46,608 nt of DNA from a virus, in IMG/VR virus record IMGVR_UViG_3300027965_000072, positions 1 through 46,608 of that record; one strand, given 5' to 3'. The position numbers were made by a program, and so were the translations under genes. Under the pieces are notes generated by a model, which was given only the letters and a program-made list of their open reading frames with translations, was not told where the DNA came from and made no database searches. Below, piece by piece: positions 1,675 through 46,557 of the stretch (its first letter is position 1; each line of letters begins with the position of its first letter).

Positions 1675-1882
1675 AGCCCTGCTCCTTCCGGAGCGATTGT
1701 AGCCACCTTTCGACATCCTCTGCCGCGTACTTAATGGTTCGGTACCCGATCCGGAGCGCCCGCGGCCCGCGCCCGTCCAGTCTCCAATCGTCGAGAGTCC
1801 GCTCCGACACCCCCAGCTTCTCCGCCAGTTCCCCGGGAGAGTAGAGCCGCTGCTCGATCAGCGGCTGCAGCATCGCGCTCAC
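1541..1882 (-). CDS. xis: Excisionase-like small MerR/HTH_17 DNA-binding protein
   Basis: 113 aa. Residues about 13-65 (YSPGELAEKLGVSERTLDDW ... EDVERWLQS) form a winged helix-turn-helix of the excisionase/AlpA type, which places a recognition helix in DNA and bends it. Such proteins set the direction of integrase action or act as small regulators. The GTG at 1882 overlaps the TGA of the ParB-like gene (GTGA), so translation is probably coupled; an ATG at 1873 is the alternative. The last 45 residues are Arg/Gly-rich and overlap the integrase start in another frame, so the functional part is probably only the first 70 residues. The xis role is inferred from position and fold type. Confidence 0.75.
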   Translation of the reverse strand: MSAMLQPLIEQRLYSPGELAEKLGVSERTLDDWRLDGRGPRALRIGYRTIKYAAEDVERWLQSLRKEQGYGRSDEGAQRAGAGRPVALPLQFPGQGVFGTDRVRRRRLKSERG

Positions 1883-3909
1883 TCCGCGGCGGCCTCCTGT
1901 CCATGCAGCTCGGACCAGCGCTGCCCCTGGTGCTCGGCCATCTGCTCCCACTCCTCCTGCGCCGCGACGGCCTCGATCCGAACATCATCCACCCAGGCCG
2001 CGATCTTCCTCTCCGCCGCCAGCGCCTTCTTGGACGAGCCGTTCTTGTCCCCGGCGCCGGCCACAATCGCGTCCAGCCCGCCGAGCAGCGCCAGGTACGG
2101 GCTTGGATAAACCAGCCCGGATGCATTCGGATATCCACCCTCCCGCGACTCGCCGTTGTCCACCTCATGGGATTGCCGCCAGCCGTCGCCGCACTGCACC
2201 AGATACACACGCGCAGTACACCCCGCCAGCTTGCTGTCCACGACAGTGTAGTGGTCCGGCGCGAACATGCCGTCCGCGTCCGGCTCCGCCGGGTCTCTCG
2301 GGGTGTTCAGCCGCGCCGAAATACGAAGCCAGTCCCCGCGCCGCGCAATCGCCGTCTCGATCCCCGATGCCGGCCCGGCACTCTTCCCGCTCGCTTTCTT
2401 CGGCGCCGCCCGCTCCGCCTTCACCTCCGCCTCGATCCCGCGCCAGTCCACCCCCGCGGCCTCGCACCGCTCCCGCAGCTCCTTCGAAACGCCCTTCTCG
2501 CCGTACCCCCACACCACCAACTCCGGCGCCAGAACAATCTCCTCCATGAGCCGCGCTAACCCGGGCAACAGGAGATCGCCCACCGGAATCGTATCCGCAT
2601 CCCACTCCGGATGACGCTTGCGAATCAGCGCCTGAGTATCCCGGCCGAGCCGCTCCCACACCGCCTCGATCCACTCCTCCAGCCGGTCCGTGAGCCAGGC
2701 CTGCCCCGCCAGCGTCAGGTCCTCCGGCACCGCCACAGCCGCCAGCAGCGCATCCACGATGCGCCCGCGCACCACCTTGTCCGTCTCGATCCGCTTCCGC
2801 TCGGCCGCCTGCTCCTTCTTCCACTTCTCGTCCCAAGCGCTCGGGCCGCCCCCCCCGTGCACCTTGCATTTGCGATCGCAGCAAATCTCGACCGTCTTCC
2901 CGACGCCGCGCCCATGCACCACCAGCGCCTTCCGCGCCGAGTCGCAGGCCTTCTCTTTGCCGCCGATCGTCTTGTACTCGCCATCGTCCAGCGTCCCCTC
3001 GCGGCGCTCGTCCCGCGGCCAATAGTCGTACCCCACCCGGATCAGCGCCAGCGGCTCCCCTGCCTTCTTCGCCGCCGCGATCTCCCGGTCCAGATGCGCC
3101 TCCCGCTTCTGCTCGTAGCAAGCCGCATCCGTGCAGATGGTGGCCTTCCCCTTCAGCTCCGGATACAGCGCCGCGCAATTCGCGCTCAGCTTCGGACACT
3201 CCGCGCACGCCGGCGCACCCTTCACGAGCCCCGCGTCCTTCGCATCGAACCCGCCGTGCCGGATATCGTGGTGCAGCTCCCGGTGGATCCACTCCTGCAG
3301 CTCCCGCACCGTAGCCCCGCGCCGGCATTCCTCCAGCGCCCCCTCCTGGTGCGCCTCGCCTGGAATCCGCGCGATCCGCACCGCCTGGTGTAGATTGATC
3401 GCCCGCTCCCGGAATGCCTTCTGCCCCGCTTCGCACAGGTCCGAGAGCTTCAGCATCTGCCGCACCCAGCTCTCGCCCTTCTGGATGCGCGCCGCCAGCC
3501 CCTTCGGCGTGTCGCCCGCCGCCTCCAGCAGCCGCCGGTACCCGAGCGCCTGCTCCAGCGGATGCACGTCCGCCCGCTGATCGTTCGCGATGATCTGCAG
3601 CTCGAGCGCCTTGACGTCGCTCATCTCCTCGATCAGCCCGGGCACCGTCGCCAGGCCCGCCAGCTTCGCCGCCCGCCACCGCCGCTCGCCGTCGACGATC
3701 TCGTACCGCTTCCCCAGCGGCCGCATCAGGATCGGCACCTTCATGCCGTCCTGCTTCAGGCTCTCCGCCAGCTCGCCCAGGCTCTTCTCGTGGAACGTAA
3801 CCCGCGGATTCGTCTTGCTGGCGACGATCGCCGCCATCGGCACCGCCGGCTCATACCGCCGTCCGGCCGGCTTCTCCGCACGCGTGTGCGCCTTCGCTGC
3901 TGCTGCCAT
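1879..3909 (-). CDS. parB: ParB-like partition/DNA-binding protein, large phage form
   Basis: 676 aa. Residues about 20-100 are a ParB N-terminal domain with the GERRWRAAKLAG motif (the CTPase-type GERRxRA box). Residues about 120-185 hold a helix-turn-helix around TPKGLAARIQKGESWVRQML. A Cys-rich block follows (CAECPKLSANC, CTDAACYEQK, CCDRKC), as seen in large plasmid and ICE ParB-like proteins. The C-terminal 350 residues are not recognised. The ATG at 3909 was chosen because an AGGAGAAGGA stretch lies just upstream; the frame is open to 4044. No ParA is visible. One of the dispersed palindromes (3878..3889) lies in its first codons. The role could be partition, transcription control or nuclease activity. 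Its sites may be the dispersed CACGTG palindromes, which is inference. Confidence 0.85.
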   Translation of the reverse strand: MAAAAKAHTRAEKPAGRRYEPAVPMAAIVASKTNPRVTFHEKSLGELAESLKQDGMKVPILMRPLGKRYEIVDGERRWRAAKLAGLATVPGLIEEMSDVKALELQIIANDQRADVHPLEQALGYRRLLEAAGDTPKGLAARIQKGESWVRQMLKLSDLCEAGQKAFRERAINLHQAVRIARIPGEAHQEGALEECRRGATVRELQEWIHRELHHDIRHGGFDAKDAGLVKGAPACAECPKLSANCAALYPELKGKATICTDAACYEQKREAHLDREIAAAKKAGEPLALIRVGYDYWPRDERREGTLDDGEYKTIGGKEKACDSARKALVVHGRGVGKTVEICCDRKCKVHGGGGPSAWDEKWKKEQAAERKRIETDKVVRGRIVDALLAAVAVPEDLTLAGQAWLTDRLEEWIEAVWERLGRDTQALIRKRHPEWDADTIPVGDLLLPGLARLMEEIVLAPELVVWGYGEKGVSKELRERCEAAGVDWRGIEAEVKAERAAPKKASGKSAGPASGIETAIARRGDWLRISARLNTPRDPAEPDADGMFAPDHYTVVDSKLAGCTARVYLVQCGDGWRQSHEVDNGESREGGYPNASGLVYPSPYLALLGGLDAIVAGAGDKNGSSKKALAAERKIAAWVDDVRIEAVAAQEEWEQMAEHQGQRWSELHGQEAAAE
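3878..3889. promoter_or_regulatory. Dispersed palindrome, site 1 (GCACGCGTGTGC)
   Basis: One-mismatch version of the 12-bp palindrome found eight times in the element. It lies about 20 nt inside the ParB-like coding region. Confidence 0.7.
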
Positions 3910-4052
3910 CGCTTCCTTCTCCTGCTTTCCTTTCCTCGCCTGGAACGCGGCGGAAACCCGGCCCGGCGGACTGGTGGGTTGGACACCGGCTCCGGCTCCC
4001 GCCGCGATCGAGGCGGCCTCGTCCTCCCCCGAGGCCAAGGCCACCCGCCCCG

Positions 4053-34955: not shown

Positions 34956-36233
34956 TGCGGTCCTCCTCGCGGCAGCAGCCGCAGAGCCTTCGAGCTTCGG
35001 AACGTCCTTGCCGGCGTCCCGCAGATGCGCCGCCAGGTGTGCATGCACGCCCTCGCGGTCTGCGTCCGGAATATCGGCGCCGCCGCGCGCCCCGTTCAGC
35101 GCCGCGATCCCCGCCGAGCACGCCTCCAGGTTCGCCGCCCCGACCTTCCCGTCCGCGCCCACCTCGTGGTGGATGAACTTATAGGACGCCTTCGCATCCT
35201 TGTTTCCGTCCGCCGATACCCAGGCGTGCGATTCGCGCAGCGGCTTTTCCTCGCTCGGCAGCCGCGCCTCGTTTGCCGGACCGTCCCACGAACCGTCCGA
35301 CGTTGCCGTGTGATGCACCGCAATTGCTGGCATTCTTCCTCCTAATGCGGCCGCGGCCGCGATCAAAGTCCGTTTCCCGCTGTACACCGCCTGCCGGAGC
35401 AGCTCCAGCGCATCATCCATGGTCCCGACGCCATCGGCCAGCCCAGCCTTCACCGCATCGTCGCCCATGAAGACCGCCGCCTGCGTCCCGCGCACGCGCG
35501 CCGCCGTAATCCCGCGGTTGCGCGCCACTGCGCCTACAAACATGCCGTAGCACTTATCCACGGACTCTTGAATGGCAGCCTTCGCCTCATCCGTCAACGG
35601 CTCATGCGGATTGCCGTCGTTCTTCCGGTCTCCGGCATAGATGGCCGTGTACTTCAAACCGATCTTGGCGTCATAGCCGGATTCATCGCAGTGCAGCGCG
35701 ATGACCCCGATGCCCCCCACCTCGCCGTCCTGCGGCACCACAATCTGGTCCGCCGCGCTCGCCTGCAGGTAAGCCGCCGAACATGCATACGAGCCGAAGG
35801 CGCACATCGGCTTCTGGCCGCGCAGGCCGTACAGCAGATCCGCGCAGTCGTACATCCCCTTGACCTCGCCGCCAGGTGAATCGAAGTCGAGCAGAATCCC
35901 CCGCACCAGCGGGTCCGCGATCGCCTGCTGAACGCCCGCCGCCAGCGTCGGATACGCAACCAATCCACTGAAGGCATCCAGCCCGCTCGCCTTGCTCACC
36001 AGCGTTCCGCAAACCGGCACGATCGCCAGCCCGTCCTCCGTCACCGTGTACGGATCGTCCGGCTCGTCGGGCCCGTCGTCCTCGTCGTCATCCCACGGCC
36101 CCGCGAGTAGCTTTCCCTCCACCAACTTCGGCGCGATCGCCGCCACGATCACATCCGCCTTCCCGCGCTCGATCGCCAGCGGCGTCCCGAATACCCGAGC
36201 CGCCAGCCGCGGCAGCGCGAAATCCGCCTTCAT
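34620..36233 (-). CDS. S49-family capsid maturation protease with scaffold domain
   Basis: 537 aa. Residues about 65-290 are an S49/SppA-like peptidase: ILLDFDSPGGEVKGM (the oxyanion region), S152 in YACSAAYLQAS as the nucleophile, EVGGIGVIALHCD. Residues about 310-415 form a separate domain (SWDGPANEARLPSEE, AWVSADG, YKFIHHEVG, GVHAHLAAHL), which I have seen fused to prohead proteases. The last 111 residues are the likely scaffold. Lambda gpC/Nu3 has the same arrangement. The ATG overlaps the portal stop. Confidence 0.88.
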   Translation of the reverse strand: MKADFALPRLAARVFGTPLAIERGKADVIVAAIAPKLVEGKLLAGPWDDDEDDGPDEPDDPYTVTEDGLAIVPVCGTLVSKASGLDAFSGLVAYPTLAAGVQQAIADPLVRGILLDFDSPGGEVKGMYDCADLLYGLRGQKPMCAFGSYACSAAYLQASAADQIVVPQDGEVGGIGVIALHCDESGYDAKIGLKYTAIYAGDRKNDGNPHEPLTDEAKAAIQESVDKCYGMFVGAVARNRGITAARVRGTQAAVFMGDDAVKAGLADGVGTMDDALELLRQAVYSGKRTLIAAAAALGGRMPAIAVHHTATSDGSWDGPANEARLPSEEKPLRESHAWVSADGNKDAKASYKFIHHEVGADGKVGAANLEACSAGIAALNGARGGADIPDADREGVHAHLAAHLRDAGKDVPKLEGSAAAAARRTAMADNNAAAITAAEFEAKLSEARKAGYAQALEIVSLCAVAGVPAAKAEEFLKGNQSAQQVGTALLNARAGAERGTEVDPSVHPPEPGAGQQGKAKPWAAVMKGLGIRTKEGK

Positions 36234-37804
36234 CGCCCTTCCTCCGTCCCCGGCGCCGGCTCCGTCCCCGCCAGATCCCCGTTGTCTCCGGGAGGCACCA
36301 CTTCCGTCACACGCGAAGCCCCGTACACCGGCACGATGCTCATCTTGGCCTCGCGAATGTGGTCGCGCTGGATCTCCGCGTCCACTTCCTCCACCCTCCT
36401 GCCGCGCTTCGCCACTTCCGCCTCGCGGCTCGTCAGCGCCGATTCGATCTCCATCCGCACCGACTGCACATCTTTGACCGGGTCCACCCACTCCCACGGC
36501 TGCCCCGTCCAATCGACATTGAGGTATTCTTCTGGCCGCTTCCGGTAGTCCCGCACGTCGATCACGCCCGCCAGAGCCGCTGCATCCAGCCAGGCCTTCC
36601 ACAGCGGCCGGCAGAACTGCTGCACCACCACCTGCTGCTGAAACTGCTGCCACATCCGCCGCAGCGCGATCAGCCGCACGCGCGCCGACGAGTAGTTCAC
36701 TTGGTTCATGTCGCCGGTGAGCATGTCGTAACTCACCCGCATCGCCGTCGCGATCTGCTGCTGCTGCACCCGCACGAACGATTCGTACGTCCCGGGCACG
36801 CCTGGATGCGCGTAGAACCCGAACTTCTCGCCCTTGTTCGTGTCCAGCATCGTGACCTGGCCGGCCTCCGACTGGACGAACCCCGTACCCTCCGGCGCCG
36901 GATCGTTCCCAACCTGGCCCCGTGCCTGGTCCTGCAGCGGGTCCATGTCCGGATCGTTCGTCTCCCGCCAGCCGAACAGGTAGGCGCCCAGCTTTTCTTT
37001 CAGCCGCTCTGCACTGTCGAAGTCGTCGAGATCCGCCAGAGCCTCCAGGATCGGCGCCAGCGGCGTGATGCCGCGCACTTGCGCCCCCTGCCAGAACTCC
37101 ACCAGGTGCAGCACCGCGCCCGCCGGCACCCGCACCACCTCGTACACGTTCGGCCACACGCTCGCGTCGCCCGGATGGTGCCGGTAAAACGCATAGGCCA
37201 CCCGCTGGTGCACCTGGTCGAACTCGATGCCGCCGCGCATGATGTTCCCCGGCAGCATCCCATCGCAGCTCATGCGCCACCACGCGAGCTGCTCCGGCTC
37301 GATCAGCTCGAGCTGCAGCGGAACGCGCAGCCCGGTCGGCGAGAGGTCCGACGCTCTCCGGCTCCGCAGCCGCGCAAAGGCTTCGCCCGCCACAGCAACT
37401 CCGCGGCACACCAGCGCCTCGATTCCCCAGAAGTCCTGCAGGCTGTCTGGCTTCCCATCCAATCCGATGCGCCGCTCCGCGCTCGCCTGCGGCGCCCACA
37501 GCGCAAACTCCCGCTCGATCCGCTCCCGGATCGCAGGGTCCGAATGCTTGGAGTGCGGCCGAATCCCCGTCCCAATCGCCTCCGACACAAACGCGTTGAT
37601 TCCGACATGCGCCAGCCGGTTGTTCAGGTCCGCGCCGCGGGCCCGCGCCAGCAGCATCGGCCCATCCGCCAGCGCCAGATTCGTCGCGCCGCGCGTCGAG
37701 GCGGGCATGGTAATCGTCCGCCGCCCCAGCCGCGCTCCGTAATACCCGCCCTCACCCACCGGCCGCCCCAGGAAGGCGTTGGCCAGCGTCCGGAAATAGC
37801 CCAT
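36230..37804 (-). CDS. Portal protein, lambda gpB family
   Basis: 524 aa. Family features are YYGARLGRRTITMPASTRGA at the start, FVSEAIGTGIRPHSKH, FARLRSRR, QLELIEPEQLAWW, GGIEFDQVHQRVAYAFYRHH, PAGAVLHLVEFWQGAQVRGI, and MRVSYDMLTGDMNQVNYSSA. The dodecamer is the DNA entry channel and terminase dock. It follows the gpW-like gene directly and overlaps the protease by ATGA, as in lambda-type heads. Confidence 0.92.
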   Translation of the reverse strand: MGYFRTLANAFLGRPVGEGGYYGARLGRRTITMPASTRGATNLALADGPMLLARARGADLNNRLAHVGINAFVSEAIGTGIRPHSKHSDPAIRERIEREFALWAPQASAERRIGLDGKPDSLQDFWGIEALVCRGVAVAGEAFARLRSRRASDLSPTGLRVPLQLELIEPEQLAWWRMSCDGMLPGNIMRGGIEFDQVHQRVAYAFYRHHPGDASVWPNVYEVVRVPAGAVLHLVEFWQGAQVRGITPLAPILEALADLDDFDSAERLKEKLGAYLFGWRETNDPDMDPLQDQARGQVGNDPAPEGTGFVQSEAGQVTMLDTNKGEKFGFYAHPGVPGTYESFVRVQQQQIATAMRVSYDMLTGDMNQVNYSSARVRLIALRRMWQQFQQQVVVQQFCRPLWKAWLDAAALAGVIDVRDYRKRPEEYLNVDWTGQPWEWVDPVKDVQSVRMEIESALTSREAEVAKRGRRVEEVDAEIQRDHIREAKMSIVPVYGASRVTEVVPPGDNGDLAGTEPAPGTEEGR

Positions 37805-38033: not shown

Positions 38034-40556
38034 TCACACCAGCCGGATCTGCATCCGCGGCCGCGCCGGCGGCATCGCCGCTGCGACGCGGAACCCCGTC
38101 CTGTGCCCCGCGTCCCCCGGTCCCTGCTCCGGCGCACGCGTGTGCGCGCTCGCCGGCGTCGGAACCGGCGCCACCGGAGCGCTCAACGCAAACGCCCGCT
38201 GCTGCGGCCCGAGCGCCACTTCCAGCGCCGCCCAGTTGTGCTCCCGGAACCGCGGCACGCCCAGCAGCCAGGCCGCCGCCATGTTGTACACCCGGCAGTC
38301 CAGCGCCTCGTTCCGGGACCGATTCTTCCGCCACACCTGCCGCGTGCGTCCGCTCCGCAGCTCCTCCGTCACCAGATCCTCCGCGCAGAGCTGGCGGAAG
38401 TACTCGTCGCCGTACGGCTCGCTCTGCGGGAAATGGCAGTAACCCTCCGGCCACTCCCACCCGCGCCGGATCTCATCCGAGCTCGGCGGCCGCTTCTTCA
38501 GATCGCCGTACAGCCGCTCCTTGAAAAAGCCCACTGCCACGTGCCGGATCTGCACGCCGCTCGGAAGCGTCCGGCCGGCGAAGGTCACATCCTGCGCCAC
38601 CGGACGGCTCACCGGCATGCTCCACCGCGGCTCGCCCTTGATCGCCACCACTTGGCTCTTCCGCTGCTGCCGCACCCACTCGTACACCGTCTGCGTCTGG
38701 TCGCCCGAGTCCACAAAGCACAGCGTGACATCCAGCTCGCCGCCGCCCTCGCATGGCGTCACCTCCGCGATCCACGCCGCCAGCCGTTCCCACGGCGACG
38801 GCGCATCCGCCGGCCCGCTCAGCCGCGACGTGTCGCCCTCGAACACCTGGTAATCCACCGACCAGGTCTGTCCGCGACGGCCCCATGCCACCTTCTCCGC
38901 CTCGATCCGGTCTGGCTGGACGTCCGCCGCCGCCGTCAGCAGCAGCCCACCCCGCGGCACCATCCCGACCGGGTAGTCCTCGCGCCGCGCCAGCAACAGC
39001 TCCCACTCCGGCGCGTCGCCCTTCTCCATCCAGTTCTCGGCCAGCGTGGTGTTGACGAACGTTTTGTAGTCCTGCGGCTTGTCTTTCTTCTGCAGGAAAT
39101 CGAGCACGATCTCCCACAGCTTCCGCTGCAGGCTGTACAGCTCCGAAATCCAGAATCCCGCGATGCCGTTGAACGGCTTCTTCGCGATCCACCGGCCGCC
39201 CCGCACAGCAATGTGCCGCTCGTGATCGTCCCACGGCTGGTTGCAGCGCTCGCAGTAGTAACGCGCTGAAAAGGCCTGCTCCTCCCGCGTCGGAAGCCCA
39301 TCGTCCCATCGGACATTGCTGAAGAACTTCCCCATCAGGCTCTGCTCCGCGCCGCAGTGCGGGCAGGGCACGAACCACTCCCGCTGATCGGAAACCTCGT
39401 ACGCGGTATCGATCTCCGAGCCCGCGATCGTCGGCGAACAGGTATCGATCTCCTTCGCCCGATGCCGGAAGCTGACCAGCCGCTTCCGCCCGAGCTGGAT
39501 CGGGTTGCCCTCGTCGCCGGCCGTCACCGGGTACTTGTCGACCTCGTCGCAGAACAGGTACCGGATCGGCTTTCCCGCCACGTTCATCGGCGACCCGGCC
39601 GAAGTCACGATCAGCCGGCCGCCGCGGAAGGCCTTCGGCGCCTTGCCGTGCTTCGTCAGCCGGATTTTGCCGTGCAGCCGCTCCGTATCCCGCACCATCG
39701 GCGTTAAGTGCTCGTCGACGAAGTCCTTCGCGTCGCTCTGCCGCGGCGTAAGCACCATGATCGGCCCCGGATCGGCGTCGATCGCCCGCGCGATCGCATG
39801 CTTGATCACCGTCGTCTTAAGAATCTGCGTCGACGACTTGATCACCACCCGCCGGATCGCCGGATCGGACGTCGCATTCAGAGGCTCGATCTGGAATGGC
39901 CAGGCGTGGAACCGTCCCGGCTCCGCGGCAGTCTCCGGGCTCAGCACGGCGTACCGGTTTGCCCACTCCGCCGTCGAGATTTGCCGCGGCGGAGCCCACA
40001 GTCCCGCCAGATAAACCGCCAGCGCCAGCCCGGCCGCCGTAGCTACCGCCGCGACCTTGTACTGGCTGATCTCCTCGAGCGCCTCGCGGATGGCATGCTC
40101 CACCACGTTCTGGCAGGCGACCGGGTCCGTCAGCTTCGCCAGCTCGTCCCCGATCTTGTGTGGCGCCAGCAGCGCGCGGCCGACCGCGTTCGTGATCAGC
40201 TCGCCCACAACTTCCTTCACTTCCGCGACCTCGATCACCTCGCTCTTGTCCCGCTCGAGCGCCAGCCGTTGCCGCTCCAGCTTGACTTCCGTCAGCTCGC
40301 GCTCGGCATCGGACTTCGATCGCTCCTCACCAGCCGGCGGCTCGAGCGGCAGCATCGCCGGTGCGGCCTGGCGCTGCATCGTCTCGGACGTGTTAGCCGC
40401 CCACTCTGCATCGGCCACTGCGGCGTCAATGGAGCCATCCGGAAGCGCATGAATCCGCCCCGAGGCAAGCGCCTTCTGGACCGCGGCCAGACTCCCGCCG
40501 CTCAGCCCCCTGGCCTTCCTCGATTCGGCGTATTTGCGCTGGCTGATTCCCTGCAT
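38034..40556 (-). CDS. Terminase small-large subunit fusion (lambda gpA-type TerL)
   Basis: 840 aa from ATG at 40556 (GTG at 40562 also in frame). Residues about 1-170 look like a small terminase: ISQRKYAESRKARGLSGGSL, a charged helix, then VVGELITNAVGRALLAPHKI. Residues about 185-840 are a lambda gpA-type large subunit: AEWANRYAVLSPETAAEPGR, Walker-like QILKTT with K247, FCDEVDKYP as Walker B, a zinc finger (CPHCG ... CERC), AADVQPDRIEAEK in the nuclease. gpA is about 640 aa, so the extra length is the TerS part. No stop separates the two. A palindromic site lies in the C-terminal codons (38134..38145). Confidence 0.88.
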   Translation of the reverse strand: MQGISQRKYAESRKARGLSGGSLAAVQKALASGRIHALPDGSIDAAVADAEWAANTSETMQRQAAPAMLPLEPPAGEERSKSDAERELTEVKLERQRLALERDKSEVIEVAEVKEVVGELITNAVGRALLAPHKIGDELAKLTDPVACQNVVEHAIREALEEISQYKVAAVATAAGLALAVYLAGLWAPPRQISTAEWANRYAVLSPETAAEPGRFHAWPFQIEPLNATSDPAIRRVVIKSSTQILKTTVIKHAIARAIDADPGPIMVLTPRQSDAKDFVDEHLTPMVRDTERLHGKIRLTKHGKAPKAFRGGRLIVTSAGSPMNVAGKPIRYLFCDEVDKYPVTAGDEGNPIQLGRKRLVSFRHRAKEIDTCSPTIAGSEIDTAYEVSDQREWFVPCPHCGAEQSLMGKFFSNVRWDDGLPTREEQAFSARYYCERCNQPWDDHERHIAVRGGRWIAKKPFNGIAGFWISELYSLQRKLWEIVLDFLQKKDKPQDYKTFVNTTLAENWMEKGDAPEWELLLARREDYPVGMVPRGGLLLTAAADVQPDRIEAEKVAWGRRGQTWSVDYQVFEGDTSRLSGPADAPSPWERLAAWIAEVTPCEGGGELDVTLCFVDSGDQTQTVYEWVRQQRKSQVVAIKGEPRWSMPVSRPVAQDVTFAGRTLPSGVQIRHVAVGFFKERLYGDLKKRPPSSDEIRRGWEWPEGYCHFPQSEPYGDEYFRQLCAEDLVTEELRSGRTRQVWRKNRSRNEALDCRVYNMAAAWLLGVPRFREHNWAALEVALGPQQRAFALSAPVAPVPTPASAHTRAPEQGPGDAGHRTGFRVAAAMPPARPRMQIRLV
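38134..38145. promoter_or_regulatory. Dispersed palindrome, site 7 (GCACGCGTGTGC)
   Basis: One-mismatch version, inside the last 40 codons of the terminase gene, about 100 bp upstream of the gpW start. Confidence 0.65.
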
Positions 40557-40687
40557 GACCACCTAGCTACCGACTACCTGACAACCCCTTGACCACCCCG
40601 ATTTTTCAGTAACTTGAACTCGCCCGCCGCCATCAATTTACCCGCGCGCCGGGAGGGCCCAGGAAGGACCCGCCGGACCCCGGAGGG

Positions 40688-41529: not shown

Positions 41530-41625
41530 TCGTATTGAGCGAAAAGGGTGTGCGGACTAGTTTTTCGACCGGCCCGGCAGTCGCACATCTGCACAGCGGC
41601 TTTCGGGAGCCGTGTGCTCGGTCCT

Positions 41626-41655
41626 ATTCTGCACTGAACGAACTGTACGTGTCAA
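41626..41655 (-). promoter_or_regulatory. Candidate leftward promoter for the late operon
   Basis: On the minus strand TTGACA (41650..41655), an 18-nt spacer and CAGAAT (41626..41631) resemble a sigma-70 promoter. It faces the gene at 41529. Confidence 0.5.
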
Positions 41656-41685
41656 AACATTTTTTGCTCGGACTGTTCGCGCCCC

Positions 41686-42061
41686 AGTGGTCCCAGTATT
41701 CCTCGTCTCCGGTCCCAGTTAGCCGCACTTTCTAACCGCCTGAAAAACAACGTGTGGTCCCAGTGGTCCCAGTGGTCACGATGAATTACGCGTGTAATAT
41801 ACGCATTTGTGGGTGTGTTTTGGAAAGCCGTAGGTTTTTCGCAGGGCTTTCGCTATGCACACAAAGGCAGAGGAAAAGAACGCCGCGCAGCGCCGCCGCA
41901 CAACCTGACAGGCTCGCGCAAGCCGGTTGAGGCCACGCCGCAAATTTCACGCGCTATACGCGCGGGTAGGCCGGACCACTGGGACCACTGGGACCTATCG
42001 CGTGGATTGTGTAACTTAGGAAGAATTAGACAACTGGGACCTTACTGGGACCTGTGGGACC
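41686..42061. other. Inverted iteron clusters, candidate replication origin
   Basis: A 600-bp non-coding region (41530..42130) holds repeats of GGTCCCAG at 41689, 41711, 41756, 41765 (a truncated copy follows at 41774) and of the reverse complement CTGGGACC at 41979, 41988, 42034, 42045 (one-mismatch copy at 42054). In both clusters two copies are in tandem with a 9-bp period. Between the clusters is an AT-richer stretch with inverted repeats (GAAAGCC...GGGCTTTC around 41824..41854). The region lies just downstream of the primase-helicase gene. Iterons facing an AT-rich centre are typical of origins. Confidence 0.75.
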
Positions 42062-42098
42062 GCTCCGAGAGGAAAGAATCGGCAGATAGCTCCTGTAT

Positions 42099-42115
42099 CG
42101 GGGGCTGCGCCCCCG
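42099..42115. terminator. GC-rich hairpin downstream of the replication operon
   Basis: CGGGGGC-TGC-GCCCCCG forms a 7-bp stem with 3-nt loop, 16 bp past the stop of the last replication-operon gene (42131). No T-run follows on either strand, so it may be a weak terminator or part of the origin region. Confidence 0.45.
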
Positions 42116-42130
42116 AACCCCGCGCGCCGA

Positions 42131-42319
42131 TCACAGCGGGTACTCCCAAAACCCGAACTCGTCCAACCGGCCGTAGCCGCGCGTCAAAAGCCCGTCGATG
42201 CCAGTCGAGCAGCTCGGCCGCACACCGGCCGCCGCCAGGAAGCATGCGATCTCATGCCGCATCTCGGCTGGGATCGGATTCGGCCCAGGCCCGAAACAGC
42301 GCACGCGATAGAACCTCAC
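42131..42319 (-). CDS. Small protein coupled to the primase-helicase
   Basis: 62 aa from the GTG at 42319, which overlaps the stop of the helicase gene (GTGA). The sequence FYRVRCFGPGPNPIPAEMRH, IACFLAAAGVRPSC, DGLLTRGYGRLDEFGFWEYP is not recognised. It is the last gene of the replication operon before the iteron region and could be an origin-binding or replication accessory protein, which is inference from position. Confidence 0.65.
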   Translation of the reverse strand: MRFYRVRCFGPGPNPIPAEMRHEIACFLAAAGVRPSCSTGIDGLLTRGYGRLDEFGFWEYPL

Positions 42320-44838
42320 ACCAGCACCGCCTGCTGCGCCGAGGCCAGCCGCGCCGCCGGCGTATAAGGCCGGTACACCCATGCGCGGCCGCCGCCTGAC
42401 GTCCGGATCTTATGCCGCTTCCACCCCTGCACCCGCAGAATCGCCGCCACGCGATTCGCATCCGCCTGGCTAAACCGCCCCTTCTGAATGTCCAGACAGT
42501 CCGACATGATCCGGTCGATCGAAACCTCTTCCACGTCGCGCAGAAAGGTGCGCACCAGGACATCCCACGGGTCTTCGCGATAGCGCGCAGCCTGCTCCTC
42601 TTGAGCCGTGGCCACGACTTCCTGCTGATCGAGCCACCACGCCTCGCCCTGCTCGAACCGCACCCGCGCCTCGGCCCACAACTGGGGACAGTCCCGCTCG
42701 AGCGCCTTTTGATCGATCGCGCCACACGTCACCGGCCAGAATCGCCGTGCGCCCGTCTCATCTCGATTCCACACGTCTTGATTCGTGGTCGCCGCAAAGA
42801 TGCACTGCCGCGGAATGTTGACCAGTCGCCCCGCATACGGCGGCCGGTACCGCTCCGTCGTGCGTGACATGAAGGCCTTGACGCCCTCCACCTCGGCCTT
42901 AGTCATACTGTTCAGCTCGGCGACCTCGATAATCCACACGCCGTGCGTCTGCAACGAGGCATCCTTCGACTCCATCGCCTCGATCTGATCCGTGAACCAC
43001 TCCTCGTTCCGCGCCAGAAGCTTCAACGCGGTCGATTTCCTCGCGCCTTGCGGCCCCTCCAGCACCAGCGCGCAGTCCGCTTTACATCCCGGCCGCATCA
43101 CGCGCGCCACCGCCGAAATCAGCCATTTCGCGCCCACCGATGCCAGGTAGAGCGGCCGCCGGTCCGGCTCCGCCTCCACCGGCGCGGCGCCCAGATACCG
43201 CTCCAGCCAGATATGCAGCCGAGGCTCGCCATCCCATTCGAGCGTCTTCAGCCACTCCCGCACCGGATGAAACGCATGATCGTAGGCCACAGACTCCACC
43301 GCCCGCCCCGCAATCTCGATCGACACCTCGATATCGCGCCGCTGCAGCCAGTCCGCCGTGCGCACGTCGTGCATGTTGGTCCACTCGCCGTCCGGCATGT
43401 CGATCGGCGGCCGCTTCCGCGCCACCGTCCGCACTGCGAACTCGTCATGCCAGAGCACGCCCTGCCACTCCGGAGCATGCCGCAGCGCCGTAATCGCATT
43501 GGCCAGGTTCCCGCGAGGCTGCCCGTTGCCGGCGCGCAGCAGCAGCGATCGCCAGTGCGGCTCCTCGCCGCCGCCACCGTCGCTGCCCCCATCGCCGCCA
43601 CCGCGCCGTGCCTTCGCGATCGCCTTCCGCACGTCCCGCAGCTTCAGCCGCCGATCGAAGTGTCCAGCGAGCCGGGCCAGCGCCTTACCGCACGCGATAT
43701 CGTCGGCAGCCGCCATCCGCGGCACCAGGTCAAAGACCGCAATCGGATCGTCCGCCGCGACGACCGCCTCCACCGCCTGCATCAGCTCGAAGGTCTCGGC
43801 CGGAATCACCTTCTCCGTCGACGAGCTCGCCGGCGCCGGCGCTGGACACGACGGCTTCGGTGCCGATCGCCCCGCAATGCCCAGCACCACCGGCGATTTG
43901 ACCTTCGCCTGACACGCATCGCAGAAGCGTGCCCCGCCGAGCGAGTGCCGGATCTTCGCGCAGCTCGCCGGCCCCGCGTCCCGGAGCGCGTGCGCCAGCT
44001 TGGCGGATGTCTCGCGCGCCGAATATCCCGGATACGCGCTGCTCACGTCCTGCGCGATCTGCTCGCCGTTCTCGCAGCGCCCGAGAATCGAGAGCTGCGC
44101 ATACCACTCCGGTTCGCTCAGCGTCCGCGCATTCTCGACGCTCCACTGTAGCCAGGCGCACCCGCGCGCGATCGCACCGAAATCCGCCGGCGGCCACATA
44201 TTCCCGCCCGATACCGGCTTCTTGCCCTCACTGCCCTCCGCAATCCTGGCCTTAACCAGCTCGATCAGCCAGCCCGGCGCCGCCGGAAGCTCGCCCGCCG
44301 GCTCGATATCCCAGAAATAGGCATCGCCGCCGGCATGCGCGAGCGACGGCGGCATTACGACGTTGTGCCCCTCGAGCAGGACCTCCAGGCCTTCGTCCAG
44401 CTTGATCGAGCCCTGATCCGTATCGAGGCCCTCGGGCCACCGGAAATGCTCGTGCGTCCCCTTGCCGCCGGTCACAGCGGTCGGACACTCGATCGCGCCA
44501 TGCTGCTCGATCAGCCGCCCGCGCGACCAGTCCCCGCCATTCCGCGGGTCCATATCCAGCACCAGCGTGCCGGATGCCTTGCCGGACACGACCCCAACGT
44601 TGGCCAGAGGCCACGCATTCCACCAGTCACGGATGCGCCGCGGATCGGTGGAAGCCCGCTCCGCCCATTTCGCGAATCGCGGATGCTTCCCCGGCGTCGG
44701 ACACGATTCGCGCCCGTTCTCGGCGCGCCACTCCTCGCAGGTGCACTTCCCCTCCGCCGTCAGGTTGTGCAGCGGAATGACGCGCCACCCGCGCTTCGCG
44801 TAATCGAGCGCCGCCTGGAGCAGGATTTTCGCGCTCAT
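42316..44838 (-). CDS. Primase-polymerase and VapE-type helicase fusion, replication protein
   Basis: 840 aa. Residues about 10-200 are a bifunctional primase/polymerase (prim-pol) domain: GWRVIPLHN, then GVVSGKASGTLVLDMDPRNG with the catalytic Asp cluster, and EGHNVVMPPSLAH. Residues about 575-760 are a VapE-type (virulence-associated E) ATPase: LVLEGPQGARKSTALKLLAR with Walker A near residue 598, HGVWIIEVAELNSM, PRQCIFAATTNQDVWNRDE, GARRFWPVTCG. The protein would open and prime the phage origin. It overlaps the upstream zinc-ribbon gene by ATGA. Confidence 0.92.
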   Translation of the reverse strand: MSAKILLQAALDYAKRGWRVIPLHNLTAEGKCTCEEWRAENGRESCPTPGKHPRFAKWAERASTDPRRIRDWWNAWPLANVGVVSGKASGTLVLDMDPRNGGDWSRGRLIEQHGAIECPTAVTGGKGTHEHFRWPEGLDTDQGSIKLDEGLEVLLEGHNVVMPPSLAHAGGDAYFWDIEPAGELPAAPGWLIELVKARIAEGSEGKKPVSGGNMWPPADFGAIARGCAWLQWSVENARTLSEPEWYAQLSILGRCENGEQIAQDVSSAYPGYSARETSAKLAHALRDAGPASCAKIRHSLGGARFCDACQAKVKSPVVLGIAGRSAPKPSCPAPAPASSSTEKVIPAETFELMQAVEAVVAADDPIAVFDLVPRMAAADDIACGKALARLAGHFDRRLKLRDVRKAIAKARRGGGDGGSDGGGGEEPHWRSLLLRAGNGQPRGNLANAITALRHAPEWQGVLWHDEFAVRTVARKRPPIDMPDGEWTNMHDVRTADWLQRRDIEVSIEIAGRAVESVAYDHAFHPVREWLKTLEWDGEPRLHIWLERYLGAAPVEAEPDRRPLYLASVGAKWLISAVARVMRPGCKADCALVLEGPQGARKSTALKLLARNEEWFTDQIEAMESKDASLQTHGVWIIEVAELNSMTKAEVEGVKAFMSRTTERYRPPYAGRLVNIPRQCIFAATTNQDVWNRDETGARRFWPVTCGAIDQKALERDCPQLWAEARVRFEQGEAWWLDQQEVVATAQEEQAARYREDPWDVLVRTFLRDVEEVSIDRIMSDCLDIQKGRFSQADANRVAAILRVQGWKRHKIRTSGGGRAWVYRPYTPAARLASAQQAVLV

Positions 44839-46481: not shown

Positions 46482-46531
46482 ATGGAGGCGCGGGTCGGAA
46501 TCGAACCGACGAATAAAGGTTTTGCAGACCT
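46482..46531. repeat. attR: attR core: 50-bp direct repeat of tRNA-Cys 3' end
   Basis: Identical to 76..125. It forms the 3' part of the intact tRNA-Cys, so the phage supplied the 3' end that keeps the tRNA functional. Confidence 0.93.
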
Positions 46532-46557
46532 TGGCCTTACCACTTGGCTACCGCGCC
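46483..46557 (-). tRNA. tRNA-Cys (GCA), intact, with encoded CCA
   Basis: Minus strand. The acceptor GGCGCGG pairs with CCGCGCC, the anticodon GCA sits in CTGCAAA, the T arm is GTCGGTTCGAATCCGAC, and the discriminator T is followed by an encoded CCA at the 3' end. About 75 nt. The 3' 49 bases belong to the att core, so the tRNA 3' end is phage-derived. Confidence 0.95.

Follow-up and report, generated by a model that had tools for sequence, protein, structure and literature searches.

The locus between the terminase and vapE genes

The window, that is, the whole stretch of DNA analysed here (46,608 bases), is a virus record and, as far as can be discerned, an incomplete genome; the genes recognised in it are encoded on the minus strand. 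An integrase gene (535-1716) and the gene of a 721-aa ParB-like protein (1879-4044) stand side by side in its left part, and the tail genes, including that for the tail fibre, come after this end. A ParB-like partition protein and an integrase are odd neighbours for an integrating phage. Further right lie the genes for the portal (36230-37804) and the terminase large subunit gpA (38034-40562), then the array described below, and then, on the right side, a gene for a Prim-Pol and VapE helicase protein. The right end carries a tRNA-Cys gene (46483-46557), which may be cargo of the phage or serve as an attachment site, and an Rfam search of the window returned a tRNA only. With terminase, portal, tail and integrase genes of its own, the element is a phage and not a PICI or other satellite.

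The VapE protein, a putative initiator of 840 aa (42316-44838, minus strand), consists of a Prim-Pol domain (residues 10-190), a VapE-like helicase domain (530-749; Pfam VapE, E = 3.5e-73), and a C-terminal winged helix (residues about 757-824, encoded at 42367-42570 on the minus strand). By profile, the VapE part matches PriRep1 with dsDNA (PDB 7PDS, E = 1.2e-98), which is also its best fold match (TM 0.77). Modelling of residues 425-840 with AlphaFold2 (mean pLDDT 90.6) predicts the winged helix, with residues 791-803 as its third helix; this is the presumed recognition helix, encoded at 42430-42468 (minus strand). Between vapE and the array lies one small gene of 62 aa with a GTG start (42131-42319, minus strand), which overlaps the vapE stop; no family was found for its longer ORF of 83 aa. 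The array begins about 260 bp 3' of the vapE stop, in a stretch (approximately 41530-42130) between terminase and vapE where the longest stop-free frame has 115 codons.

Eight exact copies of GGTCCCAG occur in the window, all of them within 41689-42061: four forward copies, starting at 41689, 41711, 41756, and 41765, are followed by four reverse copies, starting at 41979, 41988, 42034, and 42045. Shuffled versions of the window hold 1.4 copies on average, and none of 100 shuffles reached at least eight; no other 8-mer equals the density of GGTCCCAG per 400 bp anywhere in the window. The two outer copies on the left (41689-41696 and 41711-41718, plus strand) are followed by an inner tandem with copies 9 bp apart (41756-41777, plus strand). 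This tandem is mirrored on the right by a second one (41974-41995, minus strand), and together they form a perfect 22-nt inverted repeat with arms 196 nt apart. The outer cluster on the right (42034-42061, minus strand) contains a ninth iteron, the near-copy GGTCCCAC at 42054-42061. Outward from the centre, each side shows a 9-bp tandem, a jump of 45-46 bp, and outer copies at 9-22 bp; in other words, the spacings are 22/45/9 on the left and 9/46/11/9 on the right.

The centre, the presumed melting zone, spans 41778-41973. Its AT fraction is 0.55 at 41778-41880, as against 0.33 for the genome, and this AT-richer part fills only the left half of the approximately 200 bp. The only DnaA-like sites in the array have one mismatch each (41835 and 41853), and the total for the window is at chance level. 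A DnaA-dependent iteron plasmid origin was rejected on this ground and because the iterons face each other. A hairpin-based origin, including one with a long stem-loop of the pRN1 type, was likewise rejected, because the centre folds no better than shuffled sequences (z = +0.86). GC skew gives no guide to the origin here, since the window codes its recognised genes on a single strand and its skew keeps one sign at the kilobase scale.

A preliminary description of this stretch had proposed two opposed iteron clusters, with two of the left copies in a 9-bp tandem, an AT-rich centre, and hairpins, next to a primase-helicase gene. The opposed clusters, the tandem, and the neighbouring gene are all borne out, with the small overlapping gene in between, and the AT-rich centre holds for its left half. 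The count of four copies on each side stands for the left; the right has five if the near-copy is included. The hairpins had to be given up.

Facing arrays 3' of vapE in related elements

Viral contigs were scanned for the iteron tandem, and the matches comprised many triplet-repeat (collagen-like) genes, which we excluded by requiring facing clusters, and a few facing arrays beside helicase genes. Such matches lend some colour to the idea that the array is a chance repeat or the remnant of a collagen-like coding repeat, in which GGTCCCAGT would read Gly-Pro-Ser. However, the copies face each other, their spacings are not all multiples of three, the stretch is intergenic, and no shuffle reached eight copies; the layout and its recurrence beside vapE refute this explanation, to which we give practically no weight.

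The same word in the same layout lies beside VapE helicases at four loci (L029, L072, L077, and L042) whose proteins are 35-51% identical to that of the window; a fifth, L016, is the same phage on another contig, with a 100% identical protein. The spacing at L029 is nearly that of the window (left 19, 11, 44, 9, 9; right 9, 9, 44, 11, 20), and the two share the word while the primase part is a Prim-Pol in the window and a Toprim in L029. Facing arrays of GGTCCCA also lie 3' of helicases of two unrelated types, neither of them VapE, at L008 (6598-6917; DUF3854 + DUF927) and L019 (768-882; RepB_primase + DUF5906), which suggests convergence on, or exchange of, one origin word.

For a wider survey, we formed 39 clusters from the VapE relatives at 80 genome loci, 80 viral loci, and those found before, and compared the best facing 7-mer array of each cluster with 100 dinucleotide shuffles (p about 0.01). 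Of 36 clusters, 22 had a significant opposed array 3' of vapE; the control regions gave 0 of 38 (upstream), 2 of 39 (inside vapE), and 0 of 33 (further downstream). The figure of 22 is a low estimate, because the 7-mer score missed degenerate arrays that are visible by eye (L139, L141, L144, and L188). The words vary (GGTCCCA, TCCGGGT, GTTCCCA, GTGTTCC, GTCACCA, GTCCAAC, GTACCCA, CTGCAAC, TGTCCCA, and others), and the geometry is kept, with opposed tandems of 9-bp spacing on either side of a more AT-rich centre. In 19 of 20 clusters, the AT content of this centre exceeds that of its flanks (p = 8e-5). The centre typically measures 67-126 bp in relatives (median about 86 bp); with its roughly 200 bp, that of the window is the widest. 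Other words occur in the named phages Pseudomonas U5, Marinobacter PS3, Paenibacillus Bob, Corynebacterium Adelaide, Pasteurella PMP, Lactobacillus PLE2, and Streptococcus Javan589; QT1 and Javan168 were not counted, as the shuffle threshold is weak for named AT-rich phages. The preliminary description had named absence of the repeats from related phages with the same replication module as a refuting outcome, and in essence the opposite was seen: close relatives retain the opposed array, and in distant ones the layout remains but is built from a different word.

No such array was found 3' of vapE in the VapE phages of Bacteroides, Phocaeicola, Croceibacter, and Xanthomonas, in ep3, or in Bcep781-like phages, nor within about 3 kb in many VapE loci of the Rhodobacterales type. 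The rule of a facing array 3' of vapE therefore holds for much of the VapE family and not for the whole of it. Some loci without an array adjoining vapE have one 0.6-3.4 kb downstream, past inserted genes. At ten loci (L150, L152, L155, L165, L185, L224, L352, L364, L366, and L369), an array whose word fits the recognition helix lies 1-3.4 kb downstream, apparently pushed off by inserted genes.

Several further observations concern these regions. In VapE phages, the origin gap is often followed directly by a VRR-NUC nuclease gene and then an SNF2/DEAD-type helicase gene (L137, L138, L299, L300, and L301). Some arrays 3' of vapE (L160, L171, and L229) have one reversed iteron in each outer spacer, giving a small palindrome on each side that is itself mirror-symmetric. 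In the APSE-7 record (L305, 1137-1237), a putative origin is annotated upstream of vapE, whereas it is on the 3' side of the gene that GGTTGTTAC repeats face each other; the annotation may be wrong.

Covariation of the iteron word with the recognition helix

We compared the base that follows the C-C-A core of the iteron with each column of the last 430 VapE residues at the 65 loci whose word could be read. Among 403 columns, the top four correspond to residues 795, 791, 798, and 786 of the window protein; in the AlphaFold2 model, residues 791, 795, and 798 share one face of the recognition helix, and residue 786 stands just before it. The pairing of residue 791 with the base is nearly a code: glutamine goes with G at 12 of 12 loci, arginine with A at 12 of 14, and lysine with C at 35 of 38, counts that partly reflect phylogeny and amount to an effective n of about 30, the sequences being partly metagenomic and sharing ancestry. 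When residue 791 alone was used to predict the base at held-out loci, with near-duplicates removed, 12 of 14 predictions were right. The exceptions to residue 791 alone are R..M..G with CCAC (L179 and L195) and K..M..A with CCAA (L148), all of which fit a joint reading of residues 791 and 798 that was chosen after the fact.

Switches are also seen over short evolutionary distances. Within one 70% cluster, the close relatives L029 and L077 (NRVA, GGTCCCAGT) differ from L220 (NRVV, GGTCCGGGT) in both helix and word. In a tree built without the winged-helix domain, base and residues switch together at nested places (L256 in the L180 group, L231 beside L160, and L215). When the K-M-G motif was tested against base C on a tree, agreement was found in six of seven independent pairs and disagreement in none (p = 0.03, a guide only, as the motif was picked after seeing the data). 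Among the displaced arrays, 0.6-3.4 kb downstream of vapE, the rule for residue 791 is kept in about 13 of 14 readable loci, several of which are closely related. A pairing that is kept over kilobases and intervening genes points to recognition and is hard to explain by other causes.

Because the columns that covary best with the iteron lie in the recognition helix of VapE, VapE itself is likely to be the iteron binder, as judged from sequences and a model. Another initiator, or a host protein, might instead bind the iterons and leave VapE merely to unwind the DNA, as could be imagined from the same word beside the non-VapE helicases of L008 and L019. We regard this as very improbable: the top columns fall within VapE's own recognition helix, a host factor would not account for words that differ among close relatives, and the switch of the primase part between the window and L029 leaves the word unchanged.

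The same covariation bears on a role of the array in transcription. A putative sigma-70-like promoter, a good match but by consensus only, adjoins the array just past its end (41626-41655, minus strand, read from 41655 to 41626 on the coding strand) and is directed into the packaging genes, so that VapE or a phage regulator bound to the array might switch or silence this promoter, with the origin lying elsewhere. Initiators bound to iterons often repress transcription as well, and the array may serve autoregulation in addition to an origin role. As the sole function, however, an operator seems very improbable, for the window has no iteron copies at its other promoters, and the array in relatives stays beside or downstream of vapE despite changing neighbours and covaries with the helicase. 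In addition, arrays of the same layout in PICIs are proven origins (PMC6092414).

A candidate phage origin and its counterparts in known systems

We infer that replication of a temperate phage starts in this region, at an origin of the pri-rep-ori type of SaPIs and PICIs, with the VapE primase-helicase as its own origin-binding protein, and we hold this reading with high confidence. It upholds the preliminary description of a candidate phage origin whose initiator binds iterons on both sides, in that the array recurs beside vapE and covaries with the VapE recognition helix. In the proposed mechanism, the C-terminal winged helix of VapE would read GGTCCCAG, and one VapE ring would assemble on each of the facing clusters. 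The two rings would then melt the AT-richer centre and depart in opposite directions, making replication from the firing origin bidirectional, while the Prim-Pol domain would prime.

Beyond this phage, satellite-type origins are probably a general origin class of phages with VapE helicases, in which the iteron word would co-evolve with a winged-helix code at residues 791, 795, and 798 (Q..N..A would read CCAG, R..M..S CCAA, and K..M..G CCAC), so that origins could be predicted from the protein even kilobases away. Most phages have no mapped origin; with a layout that can be recognised from sequence alone and a rule linking residue to base, origins can be predicted in many temperate phages and prophages. 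It is also conceivable that differing origin words would allow related elements to coexist in one cell, none firing the origin of another. Among open-licence papers, no text joining VapE, iterons, and helicase was found; such a description may exist outside these.

Several known replication systems share parts of this organisation. Phage P4 alpha differs from the VapE system of the window in its Toprim-type primase, its helicase family, and its split ori/crr layout. It resembles that system as a primase-helicase fusion whose winged helix binds origin repeats (PMC4234260). ORF904 of pRN1 likewise combines an AEP primase, an SF3 helicase, and a winged helix, with the origin 3' of its gene (PMC4234260), but this origin has a long stem-loop instead of iterons. 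SV40 T antigen and papilloma E1 are also helicases that recognise their own origins, with a double-hexamer logic, but their origin-binding domain is N-terminal (PMC7581432) and their sequences are unrelated. At the SCCmec Cch2 origin, a self-loading helicase uses its C-terminal domain to bind direct repeats that lie 3' of its gene (PMC7581432); this origin has only three AAGTG iterons, and the helicase is of the D5 type.

The closest solved relative of the window VapE is the VapE-type PriRep1 (PDB 7PDS), and the Streptococcus VapE satellites Javan431 and Javan337 have opposed short repeats 3' of vapE, as in the window. In the SaPI/PICI pri-rep-ori systems (SaPIbov1, SaPI1, and EcCICFT073), an initiator helicase, sometimes fused to a primase, has its origin directly 3'. 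PICI origins lie 3' of rep, comprise two iteron sets around an AT-rich region, and function on a plasmid (PMC6092414), and SaPI Rep, like Cch2, binds iterons through its C-terminal domain (PMC7581432). The window has the same elements, namely an initiator of the Rep/PriRep family, a candidate origin region 3' of it, and two iteron sets flanking an AT-rich region; unlike those satellites, it belongs to a phage that itself encodes terminase, portal, tail proteins, and integrase. A 2018 paper described this origin organisation as unique to PICI/SaPI elements. A satellite-type origin in full-size phages would weaken that exclusivity and support the view that phages and satellites have exchanged replication modules or inherited them from a common ancestor.
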